A DNA stretch of 64,000 nucleotides from Streptomyces humicola (GTDB lineage Bacteria > Actinomycetota > Actinomycetes > Streptomycetales > Streptomycetaceae), in contig NZ_JANFNG010000006.1 in NCBI RefSeq assembly GCF_024436035.1, forward strand, positions 1 to 64,000, in the 5' to 3' direction. Under the pieces are notes generated by a model. That model did no database searches and was not told the origin of the DNA. It saw nothing but the letters and a program-made list of their open reading frames with translations. The stretch's first letter is position 1. Every line of letters begins with the position of its first letter. A program made the position numbers and the translations under genes. Of the stretch, positions 38,436 through 46,809 are shown piece by piece.

Positions 38436-39632
38436 TCAACGTGCCGGCTTCAGCGGCAGCGCCGCGCTGATGCGGAAGCCTCCGCCCGGCCGCGGTCCGG
38501 TGTCCAGAGTGCCGCCCACCATGGTGATGCGTTCCCGCATGCCGATCAGCCCCTGGCCGAGGCCGTCGGCGCCGCCGTCCTCGTACAACTCGTGCTGCGA
38601 ACCGCGCCCGTCGTCCTCGATGAGCATCTGCAACTCGGATTCGGCGTAGGTGAGATGGACGGTCGCGCGGGCGCACGGGCCGCCGTGTTTGCGGGTGTTG
38701 GTGAGTGCTTCCTGCACGATGCGGTAGGCCGTCAGCTCCACGCCGCTCGACAGCGGCCGCGGGGAGCCGTCGACGGCGAAATCGACCGGCAGGCCGGCGC
38801 CACGCACCTGCTCTATGAGATCACCCAGCTGGTCGACGCCGGGCTGCGGCACGTACTCCCCGCCGCTGTCGTCCGACGCGCGCAGCAGCCCCAGCAGGCG
38901 GCGCATCTCGGCGAGCGCGAGGCGGCCGGTCTGCGAGATCGTGCCGAGCGCCTGCTTCGCCTGCTCCGGAGAGCTGTCCAGGACGTAGGCCGCACCGTCC
39001 GCCTGCACCACCATCACCGAGACGTTGTGCGCCACGACGTCGTGGAGCTCCCGGGCTATGCGGGCCCGCTCGGCGGCGACCGCGGCCTTGGACTGTGCTT
39101 CGCGCTCGCGTTGCAGCCGCTCGGCGCGCTCCTCGAGCTGGGCGTAGTAGGCGCGGCGGGTGCGCAGCGAATCGCCGATCACCCAGGCGAGGGCGAACGG
39201 GATGGTGAGGAAGACGGCCTGGATCAGCCACGTCCAGCCGGTGTCGAAGCTGCTGTGCCAGCGCCACTGCGCGAGCGGCGCGGCGCACAGGCCGCCGACG
39301 AGCGCGAGCAGCGAGGCCCACCGGGCCCCGGTGGAGGCGACGGTGTAGACGATGACCAGCATTGCGAAGTCGGCGGGTGATATCTGGACGTCGGCGGCGA
39401 GCTGACCGGCCCCGACCGCGACCGTCAGCAGCAGCATCCGCTCGGGCCTGCGGCGGCGCAGGGCGACGGCCAGGGAGAGCGCGAAGGCGGCGAGCAGGTC
39501 GAGCAGCCGCTCGCGGCCGGTGAAGGGGGTGTGCTGCATGACTTCGAGCGCGGAGACCGCGAACAGGATGACGCCCCAGAAGGTGTCGACCCCTGTCGGG
39601 TGCCTGCGGAAGAAGTCGTAGAGACGCTGCAC
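38436..39632 (-). CDS. Sensor histidine kinase (HisKA_3 type)
   Basis: A 398-aa membrane kinase. About five membrane helices (LFAVSALEVM ... FLTIPFALAWVIGD) form an N-terminal sensor. A short coiled coil (EERAERLQREREAQSKAAVA), the phosphorylation motif ARELHDVVAHNVSVMV, and a HATPase domain (EALTNTRKHGG, DDGRG, GLIGMRERITMVGG) follow. It partners the NarL-type regulator downstream. GTG 39632 follows TACTCT (39645-39640) by 7 nt, so it may be leaderless; GTG 39650 is the alternative start. Confidence 0.92.
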   Translation of the reverse strand: MQRLYDFFRRHPTGVDTFWGVILFAVSALEVMQHTPFTGRERLLDLLAAFALSLAVALRRRRPERMLLLTVAVGAGQLAADVQISPADFAMLVIVYTVASTGARWASLLALVGGLCAAPLAQWRWHSSFDTGWTWLIQAVFLTIPFALAWVIGDSLRTRRAYYAQLEERAERLQREREAQSKAAVAAERARIARELHDVVAHNVSVMVVQADGAAYVLDSSPEQAKQALGTISQTGRLALAEMRRLLGLLRASDDSGGEYVPQPGVDQLGDLIEQVRGAGLPVDFAVDGSPRPLSSGVELTAYRIVQEALTNTRKHGGPCARATVHLTYAESELQMLIEDDGRGSQHELYEDGGADGLGQGLIGMRERITMVGGTLDTGPRPGGGFRISAALPLKPAR

Positions 39633-39766
39633 GTCACCCAGAGTAGGCACCGGCGATATCTGCGGGGGTCAACCGGCAGGGCGATCCTGGCGGGGGCGGG
39701 TACTCCGCAGGGTGGAGGCGCCTTCGGCCAACCGCTGCGGCCTGCGGTTGCGCCTAGGGTTGAGCA

Positions 39767-40798
39767 GTGACCGGCGAGTGGATCTCCTGGCGGGAGGCGA
39801 TGGAGAGGGCGCTGTACGGCGCCGGGGGCTTCTTCCGGCGCGCGGAGGGCCCGGCCGGGCACTTCCGCACGTCGGTGCATGCCTCGCCGCTGTACGCGGG
39901 CGCCGTGGCGGAGCTGCTGGGGCGGGTCGACGAGGTGCTCGGCCGGCCCGGGAGGCTGGCGCTCGTGGACGTCGGTGCCGGGCGTGGCGAGCTGCTGGCG
40001 GGGGTGCTCGCGTGCCTGCCGCACCAGGTGGCGGCGCGGCTGCAGCCGTACGCCGTCGAGCGGGCCGCACGCCCGGAGGGGCTCGACGAGCGCATCCGGT
40101 GGACGGACACGCCACCGCAGGGTGTGACGGGGCTGCTCTTCGCCAATGAATGGCTGGACAACGTCCCTGTCGACGTCGCCGAGGTGGACGAGGACGGCGT
40201 GCCCCGCTATGTGCTCGTCCGGCCGTCGGACGGCACGGAGCGGCTGGGCGCCCCCGTCGAGGGCCGGGACGCCGCGTGGCTTGAGCAGTGGTGGCCGATC
40301 GCGGGCGAGCCGGGCGCGCGGGCCGAGATCGGCCGCACGAGGGACGATGCCTGGGCGGCGGCGGTGGGATCGCTCACCCGCGGGGTGGCCGTCGCCGTGG
40401 ACTACGCGCACGAGCGCGATGCGCGTCCGCCCTTCGGCACCCTGACCGGTTTCCGCGAGGGACGGGAGGTGAGTCCCGTCCCGGACGGGTCGTGCGATGT
40501 GACGGCCCATGTCGCGGTGGACGCGTGCGCGGCGGCAGCCGGGGGTGGGCCCGGTGGGGTGATGGCGGTGTCGCAGCGGGACGCGCTGCGCGCCCTGGGG
40601 GTCGCGGGGCGGCGCCCCCCGCTGGCGCTGGCGGCGCAGGATGCCGCGGCGTATGTGCGGGCGCTGGCCGCGGCGGGCGAGGCGGCGGAACTCCTCGCCC
40701 CCGGCGGGCTGGGGGATTTCTCGTGGCTGGTGGTGGGGGTCGGGTGCGCGCCCCCGTTTCCGCGGTGCGGCGGATCACCTGGGAGACTGTCCCCATGA
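39767..40798 (+). CDS. MidA/NDUFAF7-like SAM-dependent methyltransferase (DUF185)
   Basis: A 343-aa class I methyltransferase with SAM motif [17 protein letters not shown] (about residues 66-81). The DUF185-type N-terminus [22 protein letters not shown] and the acceptor-site segment [15 protein letters not shown] are also present. The eukaryotic homologue NDUFAF7/MidA dimethylates an arginine of the complex I NDUFS2 (NuoD) subunit. Here the next gene, overlapping by ATGA, is a NuoD paralogue, so the same enzyme-substrate relation is likely. GTG 39767 follows TAGGGT (39755-39760) by 6 nt: leaderless. Confidence 0.85.
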
Positions 40799-41940
40799 CG
40801 ACGGAGACCACGATCGGTATCGGCGGCGCCGCCGAGGGGACCGACATGGTGCTGAACATCGGGCCGCAGCACCCCGCGACCCACGGCGTGCTGCGGCTGC
40901 GGCTGACGCTCGACGGCGAGCGGATCAGCCACGCCGAGCCCGTCGTCGGCTACATGCACCGCGGGGCGGAGAAGCTCTTCGAGGCGCGCGACTACCGCCA
41001 GATCGTCATGCTCGCCAACCGCCACGACTGGCTCTCGGCGTTCTCCAACGAGCTGGGTGTGGTGCTCGCGGTCGAGCGGATGCTGGGCATGGAGGTCCCG
41101 GAGCGCGCCGTGTGGACACGCACGCTGCTCGCCGAGCTGAACCGGGTGCTCAACCACCTGATGTTCCTCGGCTCGTACCCGCTCGAACTGGGCGGGATCA
41201 CGCCGATCTTCTACGCGTTCACCGAGCGCGAGGAGCTCCAGCACGTGATGGAGGAGATCTCCGGCGGCCGGATGCACTACATGTTCAACCGGGTCGGGGG
41301 CCTGAAGGAGGACCTCCCGAACGGCTGGCTCGGGCGCGCCCGGCAGGCGGTGGCCGACGTGCGCTCCCGGATGGAGGTCTTCGACCGGCTGGTGTTGGGC
41401 AACGAGATCTTCCGCGGGCGGACCCGGGGCGTCGGCACCCTCGCGCCGCGGATCGTGCACGCCTACGGGATGAGCGGGCCCATCGCGCGGGCCTCCGGTG
41501 TCGACTTCGATCTGCGGCGGGACGAACCGTATCTGGCGTACGGGGAGTTGCAGGACACCCTGAAGGTCGTCACGCGGACCGAGGGCGACTGCCTGGCGCG
41601 GTTCGAGTGCCTGCTGGAGCAGACGCACAACTCGCTCGACCTCGCCGACGCCTGCCTCGACCGGATCGCGGAACTGCCGCCCGGGCCGATCAACCAGCGG
41701 CTTCCGAAGGTGCTCAAGGCCCCCGAGGGCGAGACATACGCCTGGACGGAGAACCCCCTCGGCATCAACGGCTACTACCTGGTCTCGAAGGGTGAGAAGA
41801 CCCCGTACCGCCTCAAGCTGCGGTCGGCCTCCTACAACAACATCCAGGCGCTGACCGAGCTGCTGCCGGGGACGCTGGTCGCCGACATGGTGGCGATCCT
41901 CGGGTCGTTCTTCTTCGTCGTCGGAGACATCGACAAGTGA
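40795..41940 (+). CDS. nuoD2: Orphan NADH dehydrogenase subunit D paralogue (NuoD2)
   Basis: A 381-aa protein of the complex I 49-kDa/NuoD family: [34 protein letters not shown], the long central helical region, and the C-terminal [17 protein letters not shown] and [18 protein letters not shown]. No other nuo genes are present, so it is outside the main nuo operon. His30 of the quinone site and Arg56 (the residue methylated by MidA in the mitochondrial protein) are kept. The quinone-site tyrosine appears to be Trp79 (NRHDWLS). This suggests altered redox chemistry. ATG 40795 overlaps the methyltransferase stop. Confidence 0.92.
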
Positions 41941-41963: not shown

Positions 41964-42950
41964 CTAGGAGGACTGGGCGCGCAACGCGCGGACGTCGAGC
42001 TGCTCGGTGTCGTCGTGTGCGGTGAGGTCGATGACCTCGTGCTCGTGATCGTCCTGCTCCTGCTGCTGCCGCTCCACGTGCTCGGCGTGGGCCTCGTCGC
42101 CGATGACGTCCGCGAGATCGTCGGCGGCGGCCGTCTTCTGCAGCCCGAAGAAATCGAAGCCGCCCTGCTGGCGGTTGCCGGTGGCACGCTGCGGGTTGGC
42201 GTACGGGAGGACGGCGGCCGCCACCGCCGGGACCAGCTGGTGCTCGCGCACCGGCAGCCGCGGCTTGCCGCTCGCCGCCTCTGCGGCCCGCGGCTGCTGC
42301 TGCGCCACCGCGTCTGTGGCGTCCGCGGCGTCCTCCGCCGCAGCGGCCGTCACGGCCGTGGCACCTGTCGCGCTCGCTGCGTCATCGTTGTCATGGGCGA
42401 GTTTGCGAAGCGCCTCGGCCGCCTCGCGGAACGCGGACGCGCTCAACGGGTTGGCGGGCGGCGGGGCGATCGCGCGCGGTGCCGTCGCGGCCTCTATCGC
42501 CAGCTGACGGCGGCTCTCCAGGGCTCGGGCGCGTTCGCTCTCGGCGGTGGCGTAGCGCCGCAGCAGCTCGGCGTGCTCGCCCCGCAGCCGCGCCAGTTCA
42601 CCGCGCTTGGCGCGCAGCTGCGTCTCCAGGGTGCGGCGGAGCTCGCGGGACTCCTCCACGTCGCTTTCGAGCTCCGCTATGCGCTCGTCGGTGCGCCATT
42701 CGTCGCGGAGGCGGGCGGCGGTCAGGTCCGCCACGCGCTTGCCTGCAGCGCGGTCCCACTTGCGCAGCAGGACCGCGCCCGTGCACGCGACGGCTGCGGC
42801 CGCCGCGACCAGCACGCGGATGATGACCGCTTCGTGCCCGCTCGGGCTGAACCAGGCACCGACGGCAAGGGCCATGGCCGACCCTGCGACCGTCAACGGG
42901 GGAAGGAGCCGGTGCAGCGGCGGTGAATGGCGGTGTCGTCCACGTGGCAT
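41964..42950 (-). CDS. Membrane protein with coiled coil
   Basis: A 328-aa protein of unknown function. A basic N-terminus (RGRHRHSPPLHRLLPP) leads to two membrane helices (LTVAGSAMALAVGAWFS, VIIRVLVAAAAAVACTGAVL). A heptad-rich coiled coil of about 90 residues follows (ERIAELESDVEESRELRRTLETQLRAKRGELARL, by pattern), then an Ala-rich disordered region and an acidic His/Gln/Asp tail. Such proteins often scaffold at the membrane. ATG 42950 follows TAAGTT (42963-42958) by 7 nt: leaderless. Three phased TTGATCA repeats lie about 90-115 bp upstream. Convergent with nuoD2. Confidence 0.8.
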   Translation of the reverse strand: MPRGRHRHSPPLHRLLPPLTVAGSAMALAVGAWFSPSGHEAVIIRVLVAAAAAVACTGAVLLRKWDRAAGKRVADLTAARLRDEWRTDERIAELESDVEESRELRRTLETQLRAKRGELARLRGEHAELLRRYATAESERARALESRRQLAIEAATAPRAIAPPPANPLSASAFREAAEALRKLAHDNDDAASATGATAVTAAAAEDAADATDAVAQQQPRAAEAASGKPRLPVREHQLVPAVAAAVLPYANPQRATGNRQQGGFDFFGLQKTAAADDLADVIGDEAHAEHVERQQQEQDDHEHEVIDLTAHDDTEQLDVRALRAQSS

Positions 42951-43037
42951 GGCTTGAAACTTAGCGTGCGAAAGGGGCGTGTGGGAGGCGGCCACACAAT
43001 TTACCGCCGCCTGTTAGGTCACATCATGGTTTCGATG

Positions 43038-43066
43038 TTGATCAGGTCTTGATCATCCGTTGATCA
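43038..43066. repeat. Three TTGATCA copies at exact 11-bp spacing
   Basis: TTGATCA at 43038-43044, 43049-43055 and 43060-43066, with the palindromic core TGATCA in each. The second and third copies lie over the last codons of the osmoprotectant-binding protein gene, and all three lie upstream of the leaderless start of the coiled-coil membrane gene. Helical phasing suggests a protein-binding array. Confidence 0.55.
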
Positions 43067-44027
43067 GTCCCTTCGACTTCAGATACGCATCCGCCACATC
43101 CGAAGGCTTCATGCGCTCGGCGTCCACCTGCTTGTCGAGCTGGGTGAGGTCGGCGGTGGTGAGCACCTTGGTGAGCTTGTCGAGGGCGTCGGCAACCGCG
43201 GCCGAGCCGGCGTACTTGGCGTTGACCACGGGCAGGACGTTGTCCGCGTTCTGCAGCTTCTTGTCGTCCTGCAGCAGCACCAGCCCGAAGTCGTCGAGCG
43301 TGGCGTCCGTCGTCGTGGTCAGGACGAGCTGGTCGGTGCCGTCCTTGACCGCCTGCTTCGCCTGCGGGGTGCCGACACCCTTCGGGTCGATGCCGGTGAT
43401 GTCGATGCCGTACGTCGACTTCAGGCCCGGCTCGCAGAACGGCCGGTCCGAGCACTCGTCGCCGGCCGCCAGCTTCACTTTCAGCCCGGACTTGCCGAGA
43501 TCGCTGAGGGTCTTGAGGTGGTGCGCCGCGGCGAAGGACGTCGACACCGCGAAGGCGTTCTGGTCGACCGCGTTCCCCACGGCGAGAGCCTTCAGACCGC
43601 GCGGCTGGGCGAGCCTGGTCAGCGCCGCCATGGTGGAGGTGATGTCGGACGAGGCGACGGGCTTGGCATTCGCGCCGTTCGCCTTCGCGTTGAGGAATTC
43701 GGCGAGCGTGGCCGCGTACTCCGGCACGACATCGATCTGCCCCTTCTCCAGCGCCGGTTCGTACAGCTCGCGGTTGGCAAGGGTCGTGACGGACGTCCGA
43801 TATCCGGCCTTGGCGAGCAACTCCGCATACATCTGCGCCAGGACAGTGGACTCGGTGAATCCGGCGGAGCCGATCACGAGCGTGCCCTTGGAACCGGAGC
43901 CGCTCGCCCCGGAGCCCGAGCCCTTCTGTTCGAGGCTGCTGCCGCCGCAGGCACTCAGGCCGGCCGCGAGCACCACCACCGCCGATGCCGCGCCGACGGT
44001 ACGTATTCCGCGCTGGCCCTTACTCAT
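43053..44027 (-). CDS. Osmoprotectant (glycine betaine/choline) ABC transporter binding lipoprotein
   Basis: A 324-aa substrate-binding protein of the OpuAC/QAT type. The lipoprotein signal (VGAASAVVVLAAGLSACGG) has a lipobox L-S-A-C. A Gly/Ser linker leads to the binding fold (TLVIGSAGFTESTVLAQMYAELL, GQIDVVPEYAATLAEFL, ADNVLPVVNAKY, ERMKPSDVADAYLKSKGL). ATG 44027 overlaps the permease stop (ATGA). It delivers compatible solutes to the two permeases encoded upstream. Confidence 0.92.
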   Translation of the reverse strand: MSKGQRGIRTVGAASAVVVLAAGLSACGGSSLEQKGSGSGASGSGSKGTLVIGSAGFTESTVLAQMYAELLAKAGYRTSVTTLANRELYEPALEKGQIDVVPEYAATLAEFLNAKANGANAKPVASSDITSTMAALTRLAQPRGLKALAVGNAVDQNAFAVSTSFAAAHHLKTLSDLGKSGLKVKLAAGDECSDRPFCEPGLKSTYGIDITGIDPKGVGTPQAKQAVKDGTDQLVLTTTTDATLDDFGLVLLQDDKKLQNADNVLPVVNAKYAGSAAVADALDKLTKVLTTADLTQLDKQVDAERMKPSDVADAYLKSKGLING

Positions 44028-44755
44028 TGCGTCACCCATCTCTTCGGTATGCCAAGAATGCGTTGATTGCCCAATGCGTTACGGTTTCGCCGACGATGCC
44101 GGGAGGGGTCGGCGAACCGCTGCAGTACGGCGAAGAACGCCTCGACCAGCAGCGCCAGCGCTGCCACGAGCAGCGCACCCGCGACTACCTGCGGGGTGTC
44201 GTAGCGGTTGAACCCGGCGGTGATCACCCTCCCCAGACCACCGCCACCCGGCAGCGCGGCCAGCGTCGCCGTGGCGACCACCTGCACGGCCGCGGTGCGT
44301 ATCCCCGTCATGATCAGCGGGAACGCCAGCGGAAGTTCGACGCGGACCAGCACTTGACGGCCCGTCATCCCCATGCCGCGGGCGGACTCCACGACGTTCC
44401 TGTCGACCTCGCGCATCCCGACATAGGCGTTGGTGAGCACCGGGGGTATGGCGAAGAGCACCAGCGCAATGATGGTCGGCCACTGCCCGTACCGGCCCAG
44501 AGGGCTGAGCACCAGCAGCACCAGCACCGCGAACGTGGGCACTGCACGACCGGCGTTGGAGACGTTGATGGCAAGTGCACCGCCCCTGCCCAGATGGCCG
44601 AGCACCACGGCGACGGGCAGGGCGATCGCGCAGGTGATCGCCAGGCACACAGCGGTGAGGTAGACATGCTCCCCGAGCCTGTGCCACACCCCGTCGCCGC
44701 CGGCCCAGTGCGCACCCGTGGTCAACCAGGCAAAGGCTCCCGACACCGCACCCAT
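44024..44755 (-). CDS. Osmoprotectant ABC transporter permease (second)
   Basis: A 243-aa inner-membrane subunit with about six helices and the BPD_transp_1 EAA loop (VVESARGMGMTGRQVLVRVELPLA). It pairs with the other permease to form the channel. ATG 44755 shares its A with the preceding TGA (TGATG), and its own stop overlaps the binding-protein start, so the three genes are tightly coupled. The C-terminus ends in a basic stretch (RHRRRNRNALGNQRIL). Confidence 0.91.
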   Translation of the reverse strand: MGAVSGAFAWLTTGAHWAGGDGVWHRLGEHVYLTAVCLAITCAIALPVAVVLGHLGRGGALAINVSNAGRAVPTFAVLVLLVLSPLGRYGQWPTIIALVLFAIPPVLTNAYVGMREVDRNVVESARGMGMTGRQVLVRVELPLAFPLIMTGIRTAAVQVVATATLAALPGGGGLGRVITAGFNRYDTPQVVAGALLVAALALLVEAFFAVLQRFADPSRHRRRNRNALGNQRILGIPKRWVTQ

Positions 44756-45441
44756 CAGGCCACCGCCTTCCTGCGGCCCGCCCGCGTCCACGGTGTCAGC
44801 AGCCGCTGCACCCCCAGCAGCAGCACATCGGCCGCGACCGCCATCGCCACGCAGATCGCCGACGCGGTGAGCACCTGCGCCTTGAACAGGCTGTTCATCC
44901 CCTCGTATATGAGGTTGCCGAGCCCGCCGTAGCCGACGATCGCACCGACCGTGGTGAGCGAGACCGCCGAGACCGTGGCGATCCGCAGCCCCGCCATCAC
45001 CGCCGGAAGCGCCAGCGGCAGTTCCACCCCGAAGAGCAGCCGCAGCGGCCCGTACCCCATCCCCCGCGCCGCCTCGCGCACGTCCTCGGGCACCGATTCG
45101 AGGCCGGCCACGATGTTGCGCACCAGAATCGTCAGCGAATACAGCACAAGACCGGTGACGACCACCGACGCCGAGACACCGAACACCGGCAGAAGCAGCG
45201 AATACATCGCCAGCGACGGAATGGTGTAGAGGATGGTGGTGAACCCCAGCACCGGCCCGGCCGCGGGCCGCCACCGCCGTGCGATCAGCGCCAGCGGGAA
45301 CGCCACGAGCAGGCCCATGCCCACCGACACCCCTGTGATCCACAGGTGTTGCAGCGTGGCGTCGGTCAACTCCTGGCTGCGCGAGCGCACATACTCACCG
45401 CAGATCCAGTCGTTCGCCGCCAAGCAGTCCTGGCCCGCCAT
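44755..45441 (-). CDS. Osmoprotectant ABC transporter permease (first)
   Basis: A 228-aa permease with the motif VREAARGMGYGPLRLLFGVELPLALPAVMAG and helices typical of OpuBB/ProW-like subunits. The N-terminus (CLAANDWICGEYVRSR) is characteristic of these permeases. ATG 45441 has GGAGGTG upstream; longer starts lack support. It is the first gene of the minus-strand trio, divergent from its ATPase gene across a 171-bp gap that must hold both promoters. Confidence 0.91.
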   Translation of the reverse strand: MAGQDCLAANDWICGEYVRSRSQELTDATLQHLWITGVSVGMGLLVAFPLALIARRWRPAAGPVLGFTTILYTIPSLAMYSLLLPVFGVSASVVVTGLVLYSLTILVRNIVAGLESVPEDVREAARGMGYGPLRLLFGVELPLALPAVMAGLRIATVSAVSLTTVGAIVGYGGLGNLIYEGMNSLFKAQVLTASAICVAMAVAADVLLLGVQRLLTPWTRAGRRKAVA

Positions 45442-45612
45442 TCCGCACCTCCCCCATCGTGTCCCCCATGGCGCGAATCCGATCTGCGACGACCCTAACC
45501 CCCTGCACTGACAATCGGGCCGGACCGCCACACGGCAGCAACACTGCCTTCACACCACGCGTGCAAGGTACGGTCGTGCGAACACCCGCCCGCCCCCGAC
45601 CGATGAGCGTCC

Positions 45613-46809
45613 ATGATCCGATTCGAGCACGTCACCAAGCGCTACCCGGACGGCACCACCGCCGTGGACGATCTCTCCTTCGAGGTGGCCGAGGGCGAAC
45701 TCGTCACCCTCGTGGGCCCGTCCGGCTGCGGCAAGACCACCACCATGAAGATGGTCAACCGGCTCATCGAGCCCACCGAAGGCCGGATATTCCTCGACGG
45801 TGACGACATATCGACACTCGATCCGGTGGCACTGCGACGCCGCATCGGATACGTCATCCAGCAGGTCGGACTCTTCCCCCACAAGACAGTCCTGGAGAAC
45901 ACCGCCACCGTCCCGCATCTGCTCGGCCACCCGCGCCGCAAGGCCCGTGAACGCGCCGCCGAGCTCCTCGAACTCGTCGGCCTCGACCCCGCCGTCCACG
46001 GCGGCCGCTACCCCGACCAGCTCTCCGGCGGTCAGCGGCAACGCGTCGGCGTCGCCCGCGCGCTGGCCGCCGATCCGCCCGTGCTGCTGATGGACGAGCC
46101 GTTCGGCGCCGTCGACCCGGTGGTGCGCGACCATCTCCAGTCCGAATTCCTGCGCTTGCAGCAACAAGTGCGCAAGACCGTGCTCTTCGTCACCCACGAC
46201 ATCGAGGAGGCGGTGCGGCTCGGCGACCGCATCGCGGTCTACGGCGGGGGGTCCCCCCGCGGAGCAGGGGGAGGGCGCATCGAGCAGTTCGACACCCCCG
46301 CCGCCGTGCTCGGCGCCCCCGCCACGCCCTACGTCGCCGACTTCGTCGGCTCCGACCGCGGCCTGAAACGGCTCTCCGTCACGCCGATCGAGCCCGGCGA
46401 CCTCGAACAGCCGCCCGTACTGCGCCTCGACGACCCGTCGAGCGCCGCCACGTCGCGCCTACGCGAACTCGATGCCCGCTGGGCCGTCGTCCTCGACGGC
46501 GACGGAACCCTGCACGGCTGGGTCTCCGCCGACGCGCTGGCGCAGGCGCCCGACGACCAGCCGGTGCGCGACCACGCCCGCCGAATGGAGGCCTGGCTGC
46601 CCCTGGGCGCCAGCCTCAAACAGGCGTTCAGCGTGATGCTGCAGCACGATGCGGGCTGGATCGCGGTGCTCGACGGCGAGGGCGCGGAGCGCTTCCGCGG
46701 CGTCCTCACCCCGTCCCGGCTGCACGAGGCGTTGCGCCGCTCGATCGACGCGGACGCACGCGGCGCGTCCCGCGCGGACGTCGCGCTGGAGACCATCCCG
46801 GGCGCGTGA
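45613..46809 (+). CDS. Osmoprotectant ABC transporter ATP-binding subunit
   Basis: A 398-aa ProV/OpuBA-type ATPase: Walker A GPSGCGKTT, Q-loop YVIQQVGLFPH, signature LSGGQRQRVGVA, Walker B LLMDEPFGAVDP, switch VTHDIEEA, and a C-terminal CBS-like region (about residues 290-380) of the kind that senses ionic strength. An extra run of about nine residues, GGGSPRGAGG, interrupts the normal AVYGxGRIEQFDTP segment and comes from a palindromic DNA insert. Divergent from the permeases. The ribosome binding site is weak; TACGGT at 45569-45574 may be the -10 box. Confidence 0.92.
   Translation: MIRFEHVTKRYPDGTTAVDDLSFEVAEGELVTLVGPSGCGKTTTMKMVNRLIEPTEGRIFLDGDDISTLDPVALRRRIGYVIQQVGLFPHKTVLENTATVPHLLGHPRRKARERAAELLELVGLDPAVHGGRYPDQLSGGQRQRVGVARALAADPPVLLMDEPFGAVDPVVRDHLQSEFLRLQQQVRKTVLFVTHDIEEAVRLGDRIAVYGGGSPRGAGGGRIEQFDTPAAVLGAPATPYVADFVGSDRGLKRLSVTPIEPGDLEQPPVLRLDDPSSAATSRLRELDARWAVVLDGDGTLHGWVSADALAQAPDDQPVRDHARRMEAWLPLGASLKQAFSVMLQHDAGWIAVLDGEGAERFRGVLTPSRLHEALRRSIDADARGASRADVALETIPGA
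46247..46273. repeat. In-frame palindromic insert inside the transporter ATPase gene
   Basis: A run with TCCCCC and GGGGGA arms around CGCGGAGCA, flanked by G-runs, about 27 bp and in frame. It resembles the short GTCCCCCCGC...GGGGGAGG palindromes that recur across Streptomyces chromosomes. Confidence 0.5.

Follow-up and report, generated by a model that had tools for sequence, protein, structure and literature searches.

Methyltransferases of the NDUFAF7/MidA family (PF02636, COG1565) act on an arginine of a complex I subunit, Arg85 of NDUFS2, and human cells need NDUFAF7 to assemble complex I, according to the accessible part of PMC3829151. In bacteria, the available portion of PMC3750175 describes the NuoD arginine at the same site as symmetrically dimethylated in Paracoccus denitrificans and unmodified in E. 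coli. The role of the dimethylated arginine beside cluster N2 is called unsettled in the accessible text of PMC8042128, which also describes two alternative sources of an arginine near N2: NuoD in Yarrowia (R121, NuoB having Thr) and NuoB in T. thermophilus (R83, NuoD having Thr). Streptomyces carry a second set of complex I genes, nuo2 (nuoA2, B2, D2, H2–N2), with a separate nuoD2 (PMC3765725 and PMC8388888, as far as their text is accessible), from which the N-module genes are missing (PMC3765725, same portion).

Here we analyzed a window of 64,000 nucleotides from Streptomyces humicola, in which a gene for a MidA-type methyltransferase adjoins nuoD2. We propose, with a probability of about three in four, that the two genes encode a dedicated maturation enzyme and its complex I subunit substrate, both serving the second complex; the direct basis is sequence, fold, an Arg/Thr pairing, co-occurrence, and linkage. 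Comparison across genomes strongly supports a MidA-type methylase with NuoD2 as its predicted, and probable, substrate. The pair shares family, fold, and motif arginine with NDUFAF7/MidA and NDUFS2; it differs in that the genes are adjacent, the partner is the NuoD of a second complex devoid of the NADH module, and the activity is predicted. The sequence-only reading had called bacterial NuoD methylation by a MidA homologue encoded with its target little explored, which is overstated in view of the P. denitrificans modification (and its absence from E. coli) in PMC3750175, as available in part. Within the accessible portions of the open-access literature, we found neither a link of a MidA homologue to actinobacterial NuoD2 nor a soluble B-C-D-I complex.

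The methylase and NuoD2

The two genes occupy positions 39767 to 41940 of the window, with the following features:

39755..39760, + strand: TAGGGT box, possible −10 of a leaderless transcript, six bases 5′ of the GTG (sequence reading)
39767..40798, + strand: MidA/NDUFAF7-family (PF02636, COG1565) SAM methyltransferase, 343 aa, GTG start, Pfam match; predicted NuoD2 arginine methylase
40795..40798, + strand: ATGA stop/start overlap of methylase and nuoD2, 4 bases (read from sequence)
40795..41940, + strand: nuoD2, 381 aa, NuoD of the second (NADH-module-less) complex I (PF00346 match, tree)
40882..40884, + strand: His30 codon of nuoD2, equivalent to T. thermophilus Nqo4 His38 (alignment; H in 63/67 D2 rows)
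40960..40962, + strand: Arg56 codon of nuoD2, equivalent to NDUFS2 Arg85, predicted methylation site (R in 67/67 D2 rows)
41029..41031, + strand: Trp79 codon of nuoD2, replacing T. thermophilus Nqo4 Tyr87 (W in 67/67 D2 rows)

Coordinates, Pfam matches, and the phmmer alignment agree with what the sequence-only reading had claimed for both reading frames, their overlap, and the position of Arg56 in the motif. In profile searches, the 343-residue protein matched PF02636 (Methyltransf_28) at 66.9 bits against a cut-off of 23.3 and was the sole PF02636 match in its genome; the E. coli control genome had no PF02636 match, and the protein had none among the NCBIfam profiles. Its AlphaFold model (pLDDT 94.9) superimposed on Dictyostelium MidA (5ztz) with a VIA Z of 31.4 (327 aligned, rmsd 3.0) and on 4g67 with a Z of 32.6. 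The first five VIA rows (Z 29.9–32.6) were all MidA family, the next fold reaching only 13.3, and Foldseek ranks 1–6 were likewise all MidA family. Six residues (T35, E128, L130, D131, D212, and Y213) were unchanged across a 46-sequence alignment. Among 77 homologues taken from fetched loci, the glycine-rich SAM motif (G70 in 70/75, G72 in 70/75, G74 in 72/75) and the acidic residues (E128 in 76/76, D131 in 76/77, D212 in 76/76) were kept. By profile and fold, the methylase is a MidA/NDUFAF7 relative, as had been suggested from the sequence. A 2018 paper reportedly treats the proteobacterial origin of MidA.

NuoD2 matched PF00346 (Complex1_49kDa) at 235.7 bits (cut-off 24), and the fold matches listed for it were complex I 49-kDa/NuoD chains. 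In a 43-row tree with long branches and a midpoint root, the window D2 grouped (support 100/100) with two D2 from the same family; the two main NuoD rows formed a long branch of their own. The phmmer alignment to T. thermophilus Nqo4, gap-free in the key region, pairs R56 with Thr64, H30 with His38, and W79 with Tyr87. The motif of NuoD2 is thus HRG, with the arginine in all 67 aligned D2 rows; the main NuoD of this genome reads GYLHTGIEKN, with Thr at the target position (HTG), as in both main NuoD proteins read. NuoD2 is therefore the only NuoD in the genome open to modification at this site, which bears out the claim that the target is not the main complex I subunit. The model of NuoD2 has a pLDDT below 50 at residues 56–59, around Arg56, and geometry was not taken from it.

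NuoD2 also departs from the canonical subunit where quinone is bound. The quinone-ligating Tyr (T. thermophilus Tyr87), present in the main NuoD of this genome, is replaced by Trp79 in every aligned D2, and His30 is kept in 63 of the 67 rows. The Trp makes the quinone chemistry of NuoD2 doubtful, and both Trp79 and the incomplete conservation of His30 speak against ordinary quinone reduction by a complex containing this subunit. We considered Trp79 as a marker of the methylase and rejected it, since 12/12 D2 of the GYMHRGFEK type, of whose source genomes one (G040) has PF02636, also carry W.

The TAGGGT box makes a leaderless promoter for the methylase–nuoD2 pair, as proposed earlier, plausible; a sigma-70 scan returned no promoter match. 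At 39700–39716 of the window, GTACTCCGCAGGGTGGA resembles GTACTCCCCAAGGTGGA, which lies up to 45 bases 5′ of the methylase start at many related loci. The divergent neighbor is a DUF7134/HisKA_3 sensor kinase (38436–39650), followed by a LuxR-type response regulator. Within the end of nuoD2, a terminator-like hairpin spans 41892–41909 (two such in the region versus 0.6 expected); beyond it lies a convergent ORF with no Pfam match (41964–42995), and 3′ of the pair an OpuAC-type substrate-binding protein (43053–44039) stands with more transporter-like ORFs (43053–46809).

The second complex I and the N2-side arginine

The genome encodes two NuoD and two NuoH proteins. The second NuoH belongs to a ten-gene cluster, A2 B2 C2 H2 I2 J2 K2 L2 M2 N2, on another contig than D2 (locus L008); B2, C2, H2, I2, L2, M2, and N2 were named by Pfam and A2, J2, and K2 by homology. 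No D, E, F, or G gene was found in the second nuo cluster on the stretches read (L008 and L268). With D2 in the window, the second set of A, B, C, D, H, I, J, K, L, M, and N is fully encoded, without E, F, and G. The sequence-only reading had described NuoD2 as an orphan paralogue; we rejected this description, since D2 is the very subunit absent from the cluster elsewhere in the genome and completes its set. In other actinobacterial classes, D2 sat between C2 and H2 in 17/17 second clusters read (L116, L118–L121, and L248–L259; all 11 genes in L118–L121, the other 13 being cut by stretch ends).

The window system corresponds to the published Streptomyces nuo2 (PMC3765725 and PMC8388888, accessible portions), so that the membership of nuoD2 in nuo2 is already known. 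Neither nuoC2 nor a methylase is named in the accessible text of those accounts; the C2 gene (PF00329), the link to the methylase, and the Arg/Thr pairing come from the present analysis. The system shares with the known 11-subunit complex I of a strict anaerobe the lack of an NADH module and ferredoxin as the proposed shuttle, and differs from it in having D at another locus, in Trp for Tyr in D, and in that some lineages keep just B2-C2-I2 plus D2.

The arginine near N2 distinguishes the two complexes. At the switch position, NuoB1 of this genome has R (AGR) and NuoB2 has T (SGT), and Thr was found in 57/57 B2 genes of this nuo2 system. In NuoB at four loci of other types, the position is Thr in three (L260, L261, and L265) and Pro in L264. 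As read from sequence, each complex in this genome has one N2-side arginine, supplied by NuoD in the second only, the main-complex half of this statement covering one genome for NuoB and two for NuoD. Positions and logic are those of the Y. lipolytica/T. thermophilus switch in the accessible part of PMC8042128, with the difference that here both versions occur in one genome. The switch implies that D2 is paired with B2, and with the arginine placed in the main NuoB, the methylase would be superfluous in genomes that have the main complex alone.

These observations suggest the following scheme. NuoD2 would be the D subunit of an NADH-module-less complex whose other ten subunits (A2 B2 C2 H2–N2) are clustered elsewhere; its Arg56 would provide the N2-side arginine opposite the Thr of NuoB2, the reverse of the main complex (NuoD HTG, NuoB AGR). 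The MidA-type enzyme would symmetrically dimethylate Arg56, probably before D2 joins B2, and the dimethylation would allow N2 to form and the Q-module to assemble, with electrons supplied by ferredoxin from a neighboring KorAB. That the methylase is retained chiefly alongside the second complex or a remnant of it would follow from such a dependence. The genome appears to combine the two solutions, the main complex doing without the methylase and the second needing it, and would permit a clean test of methylation in a genetically tractable bacterium in which the main complex serves as internal control.

Co-occurrence and linkage of methylase and nuoD2

The sequence-only reading had proposed co-occurrence across actinobacteria as a check. 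In 296 genomes of the class Actinomycetes, searched with the DNA pattern G[YF]xHRGxEK for D2 and the PF02636 profile for the methylase, the pattern occurred in 94, the profile in 105, and both in 87 (Fisher p about 1e-47, a value inflated by shared ancestry). We then read the exceptions. By tblastn, a D2 homologue shares the fetched stretch with the methylase in 15 of the 18 methylase-only genomes, and the remaining three lie near contig ends. Two of the seven pattern-only genomes do have a methylase, four showed none on the 9.9–20 kb fetched, and one (G440) was scored on pattern and profile alone. The final tally, compiled by hand from pattern, profile, and tblastn readings, is 104 genomes with both, five with D2 only (G398, G534, G364, G308, and G440), three with the methylase only, and 184 with neither. 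D2 and methylase are thus usually retained or lost as a pair. They are also close together, with pattern and profile on the same contig in 81/87 genomes at a median distance of 2.4 kb.

Co-occurrence extends beyond the class. In a phylum sample of 296 genomes, PF02636 was found in 89 and PF00346 in 262, and 87 of the 89 have both (lists compared by eye). Methylase-family genes without a NuoD partner, raised at the outset as the case against the pairing, were confined in this sample to G178 and G277, which are 83% and 66% complete, so that this condition does not refute the pairing. The motif GYMHRG[AYH]EK occurred in 61 phylum genomes, 56 of them with PF02636; GYMHRGFEK occurred in 21, with PF02636 in one. 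We therefore rejected Arg56 as a sufficient sign of the methylase: D2 of the GYMHRGFEK type is mostly without PF02636, so an HRG NuoD does not need it.

Could the methylase have extra targets, for example a different site on the main NuoD or proteins unrelated to it? The Pfam name says no more than putative methyltransferase, and when 20 methylase loci from other classes were fetched, in ten a D2 with an HRAAEK motif lay close by on the other strand, and ten had no D2 on the fetched stretch, including one beside NuoB2 (L143). Against this, the known target position is Thr in the main NuoD (2/2 read), and D2 is present in 104/107 methylase-bearing Actinomycetes, the other three lying near contig ends. 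We regard additional targets as unlikely. At the locus of genome G279 (L143/L285), the methylase gene directly adjoins that of NuoB2.

A second alternative is that D2 and the methylase are merely old neighbors in a conserved chromosomal block and that the enzyme modifies something else. Within the class, linkage is indeed partly inherited synteny: the surroundings of D2 repeatedly contain DUF2520, panC, nadB, coaX, lysS, ftsH, folate genes, and more. The neighboring DUF2520 gene, however, is present in 77/80 genomes that have neither D2 nor methylase, so that the loss affects the pair specifically, and we rejected plain synteny as the full explanation. Arrangement also speaks against mere neighborhood. 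Among the named loci (the best 80 of 584, nearly all Streptomyces and hence close relatives), 76 have the methylase, upstream and co-directional in 34 and downstream and convergent in 42; in the four without it, D2 is within 650 bases of a contig end. An ATGA-type overlap occurs in eight of the 34 co-directional loci, a gap of 0–60 bp in 12, and a larger gap in 14. Since the pairing persists through inversion, the ATGA coupling to which the sequence-only reading gave weight is not the conserved feature.

For other classes, linkage was examined in 45 genomes carrying both PF02636 and a D2-type motif. Motif and methylase share a contig in 25 (16 at 8.7–10.0 kb on the same strand, six within 5 kb on opposite strands, and three farther apart), so that two further arrangements join the two adjacent orientations of the named genomes. 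In G016 (L118), a case of the 8.7–10.0 kb arrangement, the methylase directly follows nuoN2 of an intact 11-gene cluster. The two are on different contigs in the other 20 genomes, among them 14/14 genomes of family f9, which favors the old-neighbor account. This count cuts both ways and left our odds for the enzyme–substrate reading unchanged; on the whole, we consider mere neighborhood improbable. The claim of an enzyme–substrate pair accordingly holds up in co-occurrence and co-localization across Actinomycetes, while methylation of NuoD2 stays a prediction from sequence.

Reduced second complexes and electron supply

We compared two hand-picked groups of 80 genomes each from the class sample, one carrying D2, the methylase, or both (both in 76, D2 alone in G398, G440, and G534, and the methylase alone in G353) and one carrying neither. 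NuoH2-type genes (PF00146, 295–352 bits) were found in 50/80 of the former and 0/80 of the latter. In the 30 genomes without NuoH2, NuoB2-type genes mostly persist; none was found in G353, and three (G309, G354, and G062) have a full-type NuoB2 and may represent assembly gaps or recent decay. On the single contig of G062 (L234), an apparent half-decayed second cluster comprises A2 B2 C2, a partial H2, and I2, with J2–N2 not found on that stretch.

Twenty B2 loci were fetched (L228–L247; 15 from genomes with both genes, two with D2 only, and three with neither). Nineteen are B2-C2-I2 sets that no second-set membrane genes accompany (C2 being weak in L247), the twentieth is the G062 locus, and all 20 have the NuoB tandem Cys and both NuoI CxxCxxCxxxC motifs intact. 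In 20 D2 of the NuoH2-less group, Arg56 and Trp79 are invariant and His30 is lost in four, in a comparison where the genomes of five loci in the NuoH2 group (L069, L114, L115, L122, and L125) and of one in the NuoH2-less group (L100) lay outside the NuoH2 search. The three loci from genomes with neither gene (L245–L247; G447, G407, and G390) hold B2-I2 sets, D2 pattern and PF02636 both being undetected in these genomes.

That NuoD2 is instead an alternative D subunit exchanged into the main complex I, with no separate complex, is improbable: the accessible text of PMC3765725 and PMC8388888 does propose differential incorporation for NuoL2/NuoM2, and NuoH2 is missing from 30/80 genomes that carry D2, the methylase, or both, but the switch would put two arginines in D2+B1 and none in D1+B2 (one B1 read), the NuoH2-less lineages retain a B2-C2-I2 set, and D2 lies inside all 17 second clusters read from other classes.

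Returning to NuoD2 as the methylated subunit of a separate complex, in some lineages all that is left of this complex is NuoB2-C2-I2 and D2, and the methylase is for the most part still present. We tentatively suggest, at rather less than even odds, that in some Actinomycetes it has become a membrane-free, NADH-module-free Q-module, that is, a soluble four-subunit Fe-S complex of NuoB2-C2-I2, encoded in a compact cluster often divergent from KorAB, and NuoD2, encoded at the methylase locus, that takes electrons from ferredoxin, has no quinone tunnel, and in which MidA methylation of D2 has outlived the proton pump; such an enzyme would be complex I-derived with a new acceptor. The reduced B2-C2-D2-I2 sets would show which part of complex I survives without the membrane arm.

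Genes of the KorA/KorB type (2-oxoacid:ferredoxin oxidoreductase) lie divergent from the nuo2 cluster in this genome (L268 9502–12418 and L008). The KorB protein tested falls below the NCBIfam cut-offs. KorAB stands, divergently oriented, beside the second cluster at 12 of the 18 loci with membrane genes (this genome included) and at 12 of the 20 reduced or decayed loci, L228–L247. This adjacency is a lead rather than a rule; ferredoxin from the often neighboring KorAB may be the electron donor, which is a reasonable lead. At L239 (9645–9997), KorB and KorA appear just as short matches beside the B2-C2-I2 set.
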